NCBI RefSeq assembly: GCF_009733795.1
Contig: NZ_WNXX01000003.1
Span: forward strand, 186,001 to 250,000
DNA length: 64,000 bases
Direction: 5' to 3'
Source of the DNA: Actinotalea caeni
GTDB taxonomy: Bacteria > Actinomycetota > Actinomycetes > Actinomycetales > Beutenbergiaceae
Part shown: piece after piece, positions 11,629 through 29,027 of the stretch
Layout of the letters: each line of letters opens with the position of its first letter
How positions within the stretch are numbered: the stretch's first letter is position 1
Notes under the pieces: generated by a model
Told to the model about the DNA's origin: nothing
The model's database searches: none
The model's input: the letters and a program-made list of their open reading frames with translations, nothing else
Program-made: the position numbers and the translations under genes

Positions 11629-12121
11629 CGAGCCGACGCGATCGCTGGGGCTCTGGCAGCACCCACCGCCAACCTGCTCACACCAGGCGCGGCGGAAACC
11701 CGTCGCTCGATGCCACGACAACCGGTTGCACCACCCGTCGGGACCCGTCGAGCGCCCGCTGTGCGCCACCACCTCCTGCCGAACGGCCCGACCGCACGGC
11801 CCGCCTGTCTCGCGCGGCACCGTCACGCCGTCGACACCCTCGGCGGTGAAACCGGTCCGCGGCAGAGCCGCGGTGAAAGCCGACCCGAGCGCGCCCTCCG
11901 CCAACACCCAGGCCAACGGCCCACGGGAGCCATGTTCCACAGTGCGGTGAAATCGGACGCTGTTGTTGCAAAGTGCGGTGAAACCGGACGCTGTTGCACA
12001 GTGCGGTGAAAAACGGAGGCGCCGGCACAGCCGAGCGGCCGGTCACCTCGCGCGCACACGACCGCTGACCGGTCGCGGCGTCGACGACACTCGCCGGTGG
12101 GGCCGGTGGCGCCGGCCTCCC
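11629..12121. other. 493-bp non-coding stretch between acyl-CoA dehydrogenase and ligA
   Basis: Open frames here have no family features and their apparent peptides come from the repeats. The left part (11629-11830) shows nothing I recognise. From 11843 on it holds five copies of a GCGGTGAAA-containing motif (see the repeat entry). It is bounded by the 3' ends of two genes, so it should contain terminators but no promoter for either neighbour. Confidence 0.6.
11933..12019 (+). repeat. three 28-bp direct repeats (GTGCGGTGAAA family)
   Basis: Units run 11933-11960, 11964-11991 and 11992-12019. Each begins TGTTsCAmAGTGCGGTGAAA; the first two end CGGACGC. The first two are separated by an extra TGT and the last two are contiguous. 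Two diverged partial copies, GCGGTGAAACCGG at 11843-11855 and GCGGTGAAAGCCGAC at 11870-11884, lie just upstream. Adenine and thymine content is well above the surroundings. The layout resembles tandem transposase-binding sites at an insertion-sequence end, but no transposase is near. Confidence 0.85.
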
Positions 12122-27019: not shown

Positions 27020-27196
27020 ATGACCAGCACCCCCACCCCGCCCGTGGTCCCGCTGCCCGACGACGAGGGCGACGACACGACGCTGCTCGGCGAGGACGAG
27101 CGCCCGCTCGACACCGACCTCGACGACGACGCCGTCGACAGCGCCGAGGCCGACCGCCGCGCCGCCACCGAGGGCGAGATCGGCGAGGACGCCTAG
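27020..27196 (+). CDS. 58-residue acidic small protein
   Basis: ATG at 27020 to TAG at 27196 encodes 58 residues with about 20 Asp/Glu and three Arg, beginning MTSTPTPPVVPLPDDEGDD and ending ATEGEIGEDA. A strong ribosome binding site, GAAGGAGAG (27007-27015), sits 4 nt before the ATG, one of the best in the window, and TAGCGT lies upstream. The protein is probably disordered. I recognise no family. It sits between glgX and a palindromic repeat element. Confidence 0.65.
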   Translation: MTSTPTPPVVPLPDDEGDDTTLLGEDERPLDTDLDDDAVDSAEADRRAATEGEIGEDA

Positions 27197-27200
27197 CCGC

Positions 27201-27351
27201 TGTCGACCCACTTCTGCCCCCTCTCCCGGAGTCAACCCACTTCTGCCCCCAGGGTCTCGACCGGCGCCTGCCATCCCGAGCAGGTCGAGAGCGGCTCGCG
27301 CGGCAGGAGTGGGTTGAAACCTGTCGAGGGGCAGAAGTGGGTTGAAACCTG
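27201..27351. repeat. nested palindromic repeat element (CAACCCACTTCTGCCCC family)
   Basis: Two direct copies of a core reading (C)AACCCACTTCTGCCCC lie at 27204-27220 (one mismatch) and 27233-27249. Two copies in inverted orientation lie at 27308-27323 (diverged) and 27328-27351, spaced 28 bp. Between the arms is a further hairpin, TCTCGACC (27255-27262) with GGTCGAGA (27283-27290). The whole 150 bp is therefore roughly symmetric, like a small non-autonomous mobile element or paired transposon ends. No coding potential is seen. Confidence 0.85.
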
Positions 27352-27367
27352 CTGCGGGGGGTCTCGC

Positions 27368-27380: not shown

Positions 27381-29027
27381 ATGACAGACACCGACGTCGT
27401 CGTCGTGGGAGCCGGTCTCTCCGGGCTGGTCACCGCCACCGAGCTGGTGGCGCGGGGCAGGCGCGTGACGCTGCTCGACGCCGAGCCGGCCGGCGCGCTG
27501 GGCGGGCAGGCCTGGTGGTCCTTCGGCGGGCTGCTGCTCGTCGACTCCCCCGAGCAACGGCGTCTGGGCGTGCGCGACTCCCCCGACCTCGCGCTCGCCG
27601 ACTGGCTCGCCTCCGCCGACTTCGCCGAGGGCGCCGATCGCGGTGAAGGCCCGGACCGCAACGGCTACGCGTGGGCGCAGGCCTACGTCGAGCTCGCCGC
27701 GGGCGAGCTGCGGCCCTGGCTGCGCGCCAAGGGCGTGCGGTGGTTCCCGCTCGTGCAGTGGGCGGAGCGGGGCGGGCACGCCACGCACGGTCGCGGCAAC
27801 ACCGTGCCGCGCTTCCACGTCACGTGGGGCACCGGTCCGGCGATCCTGGAGCCGTTCGTGCGCGCGGCGCGCGATGCCCGCGCGGCCGGCACCCTCGACG
27901 TCCGGTTCCGGCGCCGCGTCACCGACCTCCTCACCGTCGGCGGTGCCGTCGTCGGCGTGCGGGCGGACGTGCTCGCCGACGACGCGCCCGGGCGTGGACG
28001 CCCCAGCTCGCGCGAGGTCGTCGGCGAGGAGCAGGTGACGGCGGAGGCGGTCGTCGTCGCGACCGGTGGCATCGGCGCCAACCACGAGCTGGTGCGCTCG
28101 CTGTGGCCGCGCGCCGCGGGCCGGCTGCCGCAGGACCTGCTCTCTGGCGTGCCCGACTCGACCGACGGCGTGGTGCTCGACCGCGCCGCCGCCGCGGGCG
28201 CCGCGATCGTGCACACCGACCGGATGTGGCACTACCCGGAGGGGCTGCCGATGCAGCCGCCGGTATGGAGCCGCCACGGGGTGCGGATCCTGCCCGGTCC
28301 GAGCGCGCTGTGGCTCGACGCCGACGGCCACCGGCTGCCCGCGCCGCTGTTCCCCGGCTTCGACGCCCTCGGTGCGCTCATGCACCTGACCGAGCACGGC
28401 CACGAGCACTCGTGGTTCGTGCTCAACAAGGCGGTCATGGTCAAGGAGTTCGCGTTCTCCGGCTCCGACATGAACCCCGACCTCACCGGCAAGAGCGTGC
28501 GGCAGCTGCTCAAGCGGGTGACGAGCGGCGCCACCCCGGTCGTCGAGTTCGCGAAGACCTCGCCCGACTTCGTGTGGGCCGACGACGTCGCCGGGCTCGC
28601 GGCGGGCATGAACGCCCTCACCGGGACCTCGCAGATCTCCGCGAGCGCGCTCGCGGAGGTGGTCGCGGCGCGCGACGCCGCGGTCACCGCGGGGGGCGAC
28701 CCGCAGATCGAGGAGATCCGACGGGCGCGCAGCTACGTCGTCGACAGGCGGATGCGGGTGGCCGAGCCGGCGCCGCTCACGCGGCCCGAGGACGGGCCGT
28801 TGCTCGCCGTGCGGCTGCGCGCACTCACCCGCAAGACGCTCGGCGGCCTGCACACCGACGTCACCGGCCGGGTGCTGTGCCCCGACGGCGAGGTGCTGCC
28901 GGGGCTCTGGGCGGTCGGCGAGGCCGCCGGGTTCGGCGGCGGCGGCATCCACGGCAGCCGCTCGCTCGAGGGCACGTTCCTCGGCGGCTGCCTGCTCACC
29001 GGCCGGGTGGTGGGCCGCGCGATCTGA
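27381..29027 (+). CDS. FAD-binding dehydrogenase, KstD/fumarate-reductase-like
   Basis: The 548-residue flavoprotein has an N-terminal dinucleotide fold (VVVVGAGLSGLVTATELVARG), the ATGGIGANHELV segment, and the C-terminal FAD-closing motif LWAVGEAAGFGGGGIHGSRSLEG. It matches the group usually annotated as FAD-binding dehydrogenase (COG3573), related to 3-ketosteroid delta1-dehydrogenase, whose substrates are mostly unknown. It has no signal peptide, so it acts in the cytoplasm. It is monocistronic and convergent with the hexapeptide-repeat gene. Confidence 0.88.
   Translation: MTDTDVVVVGAGLSGLVTATELVARGRRVTLLDAEPAGALGGQAWWSFGGLLLVDSPEQRRLGVRDSPDLALADWLASADFAEGADRGEGPDRNGYAWAQAYVELAAGELRPWLRAKGVRWFPLVQWAERGGHATHGRGNTVPRFHVTWGTGPAILEPFVRAARDARAAGTLDVRFRRRVTDLLTVGGAVVGVRADVLADDAPGRGRPSSREVVGEEQVTAEAVVVATGGIGANHELVRSLWPRAAGRLPQDLLSGVPDSTDGVVLDRAAAAGAAIVHTDRMWHYPEGLPMQPPVWSRHGVRILPGPSALWLDADGHRLPAPLFPGFDALGALMHLTEHGHEHSWFVLNKAVMVKEFAFSGSDMNPDLTGKSVRQLLKRVTSGATPVVEFAKTSPDFVWADDVAGLAAGMNALTGTSQISASALAEVVAARDAAVTAGGDPQIEEIRRARSYVVDRRMRVAEPAPLTRPEDGPLLAVRLRALTRKTLGGLHTDVTGRVLCPDGEVLPGLWAVGEAAGFGGGGIHGSRSLEGTFLGGCLLTGRVVGRAI

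Follow-up and report, generated by a model that had tools for sequence, protein, structure and literature searches.

In a window of 64,000 nucleotides from Actinotalea caeni (the whole stretch of DNA that was analysed), we examined a nested palindromic element at 27201-27347 and found that it belongs to a dispersed family of intergenic repeats, in which one nuclease-like gene is associated with each repeat dialect. A sequence-only reading had likened the element to a MITE; it is better described as REP/REPIN-like with a cognate gene of the DUF559 (Vsr-like) type. Within this REP-like family, which we call family A, the window element is probably a non-autonomous member, probably with a use as terminator. 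The results point to a kind of bacterial system not recognised so far, in which each repeat family would be maintained by a nuclease resident in the same genome.

The element is built from a 21-bp unit (TTTCAACCCACTTCTGCCCCC) that occurs four times, twice on each strand, around a small inner hairpin. Unit 1 (TGTCGACCCACTTCTGCCCCC; 27201..27221, + strand) begins 4 nt past the stop codon of the upstream gene and is followed at a spacing of 29 bp by unit 2 (AGTCAACCCACTTCTGCCCCC; 27230..27250, + strand), while the reverse units 3 (27299..27319, - strand) and 4 (27327..27347, - strand) are spaced by 28 bp. The arms of the inner hairpin, TCTCGACC on the left (27255..27262) and GGTCGAGA on the right (27283..27290), were read directly from the sequence and from the fold. 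Core copies are located at 27204-27218 (+, 1 mismatch), 27233-27247 (+, exact), 27302-27316 (-, 1 mismatch) and 27330-27344 (-, exact). At up to three mismatches, the window holds six core matches, four of which form the element, compared to a mean of 0.82 in shuffled sequences, and six or more were reached in none of 100 shuffles. Coordinates and shuffle test thus bear out the earlier description of two direct and two inverted core copies with an inner hairpin. The large fold that had been predicted is also possible: the stretch 27195-27355 folds as RNA with -93.4 kcal/mol (z -5.8) and as DNA with -50 (z -5.6), values equalled in neither case by any of 200 shuffles. The neighbours were named correctly as well. 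Upstream lies a 58-aa acidic ORF (27020..27196, + strand; no Pfam match), whose TAG at 27194-27196 abuts the element, and downstream a flavoprotein gene encoding a 548-aa FAD_binding_2 protein (27381..29027, + strand; Pfam E 9.8e-65).

Several other classes were considered for the element and rejected. A CRISPR array does not fit, as the spacers are about 8 nt and thus not long, and the Rfam match to CRISPR-DR56 scores 20.8 bits compared to a gathering score of 35; matches to microRNA families in Rfam also stay below their gathering scores. An array of Rho-dependent (rut) sites does not serve as the whole explanation, as a fixed core of 16-21 bp would be needless there (to our knowledge, rut sites require none), and could be a side function at most.

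A search of G000, the 4.0-Mb genome (49 contigs) from which the window comes, gave 136 matches of the 15-nt family A core at up to two mismatches, compared to 5 for a reversed-pattern control, so that the repeat proved to be multicopy. The loci examined hold at least 35 clusters; the site lists are lower bounds, with 100 of the 136 core matches listed and 40 of 234 candidates scored. The common layout consists of one to five forward units, an interior of variable length and one to seven reverse units, with a period of 28-29 bp; about ten clusters are one-armed and two (L025, L044) show the opposite orientation. Where a cluster is flanked by the 3' end of a gene, the outermost unit is met in sense direction in 31 of 37 cases and otherwise in the remaining six, a direction that at two-armed copies is given by the layout alone because the element is symmetric. 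The unit stands 0-7 nt past the stop codon in 26 of these 31 sense flanks, and 28 cluster flanks are gene 5' ends at distances of 19-533 nt; all flank distances are approximate, as they depend on a home-made gene caller. The sense strand is C-rich (46% C, 17% G), eleven interiors yielded no BLAST match among each other, and the unit itself is neither palindromic nor GTAG/CGTC-tagged.

A second family of the same genome, family B, has a 28-bp unit with a TTTCACCGCACTTTGC/G core and gave 129 matches at up to two mismatches, compared to 37 for the control, with about 30 places among the matches listed. One of its elements lies in the window between convergent genes (11937..12011, - strand) and carries three 16-nt cores of the TTTCACCGCACTTTGC type. 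Nineteen family B interiors produced just 11 pairwise BLAST matches, 19-69 nt long. A tandem-repeat scan over 464 kb of G000 returned 16 intergenic regions, of which six belong to family A, three to family B and seven contain neither core. Family B arms were also seen to enclose a candidate VOC/glyoxalase-like short ORF (L157:2272-2670) and, at L156:2183-5531, two genes within an interior of 3.5 kb.

The cognate gene of family A is found outside the window, at G000:C22:100719-101702, and is bracketed by inverted family A arrays. In one of two congeners (G002; the other is G001), an array pair at another place encloses a homolog with 50% identity. A search of 24 genomes of the family revealed four homologs above 200 bits in the genus, all of them between inverted arrays and in four different dialects: the G000:C22 gene in family A, a gene at about G000:C45:29740-30648 (its TAG is the natural stop) in family B, and G002:C13 and G002:C11 in the two dialects of G002. 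The congener G001 has arrays with fewer units and no close homolog (best match 40 bits). The orthologue of the G000:C22 site in G002 has arrays but no gene between them, as if an inserted gene had been gained or lost. The same arrangement recurs in a further genus, g7, in which both homologs found are bracketed by a unit unrelated to that of the first genus and located directly behind the stop codons of the neighbouring genes. This unit gave 106 and 121 matches in the two g7 genomes, compared to 5 and 4 for the controls, at a background of 24-25 matches in G000 and G002. Across the family, the family A protein was matched in 18 of the 24 genomes.

By its predicted fold, the family A protein combines an AbiEi-like part at the N-terminus with a Vsr-like PD-(D/E)XK (DUF559) nuclease. 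A Pfam scan of nine homologs detected DUF559 in eight and AbiEi_4 in four of them, and an AlphaFold2 model based on an alignment of 24 sequences reached a pLDDT of 91.3 and a pTM of 0.83. Foldseek matches were re-examined with VIA-align, and the resulting ranking covers the folds that Foldseek returned. The predicted C-terminal part aligned with the homing endonuclease I-Bth0305I (3r3p; Z 11.7, rmsd 2.8, 95 aligned), with Vsr (1cw0; Z 11.6, rmsd 2.2, 110 aligned) and with 3hrl (Z 11.6), and the predicted N-terminal part with AbiEi (6y8q; Z 11.5, rmsd 6.1 over 179). AbiEi is the antitoxin of the type IV toxin-antitoxin system AbiE, in which it stands next to the toxin AbiEii. All 24 sequences have D228 and D241, and almost all have E239 and H246.

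The genes also have an upstream motif in common. TCCACA occurs within 250 bp upstream of 22 of 24 DUF559 genes (at L197 in reverse orientation only), compared to 66 of 1580 background windows, and is presumably similar to part of a DnaA box. In 12 of the 24 genes it takes the form of a direct pair with a distance of 26-29 bp. Before the family A gene, the motif is located at L129:633 (G000:C22:100634), and the pair at this place is the sole one with a distance of 24-32 bp in 400 kb of G000; distant homologs have a pair of this kind in two of 22 cases. The distance within the pairs equals the array period, which would agree with DNA recognition by the protein at this interval.

Both congeners share the architecture of G000 with different units, namely TTTCAACGCACTTTCG and variants thereof, and in G002 additionally TTTCAACACGATTCCG. 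At up to three mismatches, the dialect gave 134 matches in G002 (4 for the control) and 46 in G001 (8 for the control); several single-match places were left out of the G002 locus set, which was drawn from the matches listed and is a lower bound. When 396 genomes of the order were searched at up to one mismatch, the three species of the genus alone exceeded the 0-2 matches of all others. As in G000, the arrays of the congeners follow genes: 60 of 70 3'-end flanks in G001 and G002 are met in sense direction and 54 of these lie within 23 nt of the stop codon, with four of the 60 having negative distances that are gene-call errors. According to a position check, six of 33 G000 loci have an array site in common with the G001 and G002 loci fetched, and six of 13 G001 loci have one in common with G002; at L030 and L051, the neighbouring DNA is common with a congener and the arrays are located elsewhere. 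Of the units at these six common sites, 40 of 42 in G000 and 31 of 36 in G001 and G002 follow the dialect of their own genome (units were sought with the cores of each genome at up to four mismatches, and the two consensus sequences differ at three positions). One G000 unit, in L038, is identical to the G002 consensus.

Cores and spacers behave differently in these comparisons. Core identity is 86-92% in every comparison, a level that is partly an effect of selecting units at up to three mismatches, and spacer identity amounts to 31-45% between opposite arms and 34-44% between different sites compared to 51-62% between adjacent units within an arm. This pattern suggests that arrays grow locally and that the uniformity of the cores is maintained by a factor recognising them. 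At the window's site, both flanking genes are kept in G001 and G002 and the element is absent from the orthologous intergenic region in either congener. Hence, the single-copy element lacking any empty site in relatives, which the sequence-only reading had named as the outcome speaking against it, is not what we found. The congeners carry other hairpins there (L021:1650-1752 and L022:1616-1712), with a modest excess of folding energy (z -2.0 and -1.7), and an alignment of the window's site to the two empty sites, inspected for a target-site duplication, was too diverged to be read. Two further array sites, those of L051 (G000) and L070 (G002), are empty in G001.

A profile of the six proteins extended the search to the order and matched 43 of 396 genomes at 1e-20. 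From 64 matches listed, 30 were taken as loci, of which seven were excluded because a contig end truncated them, four had been counted already and 19 were new with both flanks. On inspection by eye, ten of these 19 further homologs have their own repeats on both sides (L196, L199, L200, L201, L205, L208, L216, L217, L219, L220); no bracketing repeats were found within 500 bp at the other nine. A first flank test around homologs misses palindromic repeats; one case is L168, which is identical in position to L217, where repeats are present. A blind inverted-flank score of at least 18 of 20 was reached by seven of the 19 homologs compared to nine of 151 G000 genes, the family A nuclease gene among them; since eight of 150 ordinary genes also score 18 of 20, the test is weak when used alone. 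Nine of the bracketing repeats (L220 was left out) were searched in their nine source genomes and proved multicopy in seven, with 68, 14, 95, 11, 21, 45 and 54 matches, and not dispersed in the other two (G083 with 1 match, G086 with 3); palindromes can match both strands, so that places are fewer than matches. Every bracketing-repeat row among the matches listed fell on a piece of its own genome and none on that of another.

The observations, namely the repeats with their dispersal and dialects, the single bracketed gene per dialect, the predicted nuclease fold, the conserved acidic residues in it and the location next to stop codons, can be joined in a proposed mechanism. We consider it likely that the arrangement is REP/RAYT-like but based on a nuclease unrelated to RAYT, with the window element as a non-autonomous member. 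The cognate protein would probably recognise the unit dialect of its own family and nick or cut there; repair after the nick may then duplicate units in tandem, keep them homogeneous and rarely give rise to new intergenic sites. The surviving copies would be those immediately past a stop codon, a position in which hairpin and C-rich strand could act as transcription terminators. Some observations speak against this reading: the site-specific spacers disfavour a recent spread of entire units together with flanking sequence; G001 has arrays without a close homolog, nine of 19 homologs are unbracketed and two of nine repeats undispersed; and a host function alone could yield the stop-codon position and maintained cores. 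A more far-reaching proposal, to which we give somewhat less than an even chance, is a new class of elements across several families of the order, in which single-copy AbiEi/Vsr-like nucleases own, maintain and re-write genome-wide repeats at gene ends. Dialect switches would then arise from altered specificity of the nuclease.

The strongest competing explanation, which we nevertheless regard as unlikely, is that nothing moves: the arrays would be host regulatory sequences under selection, e.g. bidirectional terminators or 3'-end stabilisers, and the DUF559 protein a resident DNA-binding user. The tight position behind stop codons, the different hairpins at the window's site in the congeners, the uniform cores with site-specific spacers and the array sites conserved between species (six of 33 and six of 13 loci) would all be expected. 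Against this stand the three array sites that are empty in a congener (that of the window in addition to L051 and L070), the gene found within arrays in six of six close homologs, and the orthologous G002 site, where arrays without the gene resemble the gain or loss of an insert. With lower probability still, a Vsr-like enzyme might drive short-patch correction by nicking imperfect units, with repair converting the core alone, so that cores would evolve in concert across the genome and spacers would stay local. Such a drive agrees with the core identity of 0.86-0.92 throughout (in part due to selection at up to three mismatches) and with opposite-arm spacers at the level of different sites; the own-genome dialect of most cores at the six orthologous sites, the L038 unit with the G002 consensus and the presence of Vsr among the nearest folds of the predicted structure also point in this direction. 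We know of no correction template, however, and selection for recognition would look identical.

MITEs have inverted arms, an intergenic position and no coding capacity, and the window element resembles them in all three respects. Part of the earlier comparison to a MITE therefore stands, as the element is multicopy, capable of forming a long hairpin and missing at this site in both congeners; the part that does not stand concerns a common body, since interiors are unshared and the spacers of the two arms unrelated. A classical MITE family mobilised by an IS transposase is very improbable in our view, given that arms evolve apart without a common interior and that no Y1 (PF01797)/RAYT transposase was found in the three genomes of the genus, whereas a control search detected it in five of 14 genomes. 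We give least credit of all to the idea that DUF559 genes are passengers that landed by chance in repeat-rich intergenic regions. Many DUF559 genes indeed lack adjacent arrays, but all six close homologs have repeats on either side, with a separate unit for each species or dialect, and chance bracketing is small because a genome has roughly 60 array sites (35 family A clusters and about 30 listed family B places).

Among known systems, the REP/REPIN repeats with their RAYT (TnpA_REP) genes are closest to the likely nuclease-repeat system proposed here. In these 'REPtrons', each repeat class has a resident gene flanked by that repeat, the dialect switches from one relative to the next ('orthoswitch') and repeats outlive a lost gene (PMC3116915, PMC3686654, PMC3733652). 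The arrays of the genus are similar in having many dispersed extragenic copies per genome, mostly as inverted doublets, and a nuclease gene flanked by its cognate repeat, here the DUF559 gene, as well as in dialect switching and in repeats that outlive the gene. They differ in the enzyme, which is predicted to be a Vsr-like PD-(D/E)XK nuclease with an AbiEi-like part in contrast to the Y1 HUH nuclease RAYT; in the unit, which is a non-palindromic tandem repeat of 28-29 bp without GTAG in contrast to the GTAG/CGTC-tagged REP palindrome of 20-40 bp; and in the copies abutting stop codons. Lacking both a Y1 transposase and a tagged palindrome, the genus system is thus not a member of REP/RAYT. 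With Vsr-like or DUF559 nucleases such as E. coli Vsr, Caulobacter VsrA (PMC12907096, consulted in part) and I-Bth0305I (3r3p), the protein shares the predicted fold and the conserved acidic residues; Vsr, however, is a mismatch-repair enzyme, the entry title of I-Bth0305I names a homing endonuclease, and the consulted part of PMC12907096 draws no link between such nucleases and a repeat family. The TAACTGA direct repeats of Beggiatoaceae, in the part of PMC4679880 consulted, likewise form many intergenic sets for which a trans-acting binder was proposed, but these are heptamers near start codons and no repeat-flanked cognate gene is named there. Unlike MITEs, the elements of the genus share no interior. 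In the literature within coverage, outside of which most subscription papers fall, a search for DUF559, AbiEi, Vsr, REP, MTES_1575 and mobile repeats returned no report of a DUF559-repeat association.

Many genomes of the order contain genes of the DUF559/AbiEi type to which no role has been assigned. If a subset of them partners repeat families, these genes would gain a testable substrate and the palindromes behind genes an origin. The arrangement known from REP/RAYT would then have been invented a second time, independently and with an unrelated nuclease, and the persistence and concerted change of short bacterial repeats could be tested on two unrelated enzymes.

Outside chromosomal contexts, a plasmid search gave a single weak match in Tsukamurella, a phage search gave no match and a search of viral contigs no confirmed one. 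A look-alike tandem pattern was met at 12 loci in named genomes and rejected as related: eleven loci (ten in cyanobacteria, one in Prevotella) consist of a different AACCCACCCCTGCC repeat, and the remaining one in Nocardioides is another short repeat. The AACCCACCCCTGCC look-alikes (L056-L066) differ from the genus unit in their consensus and may represent convergence. A further dialect, CTCGTCGATCTGGCTAC or ..GGTCAC, was seen in G024 of genus g7, a genome without a family A protein match, where it often forms inverted pairs 22 bp apart.
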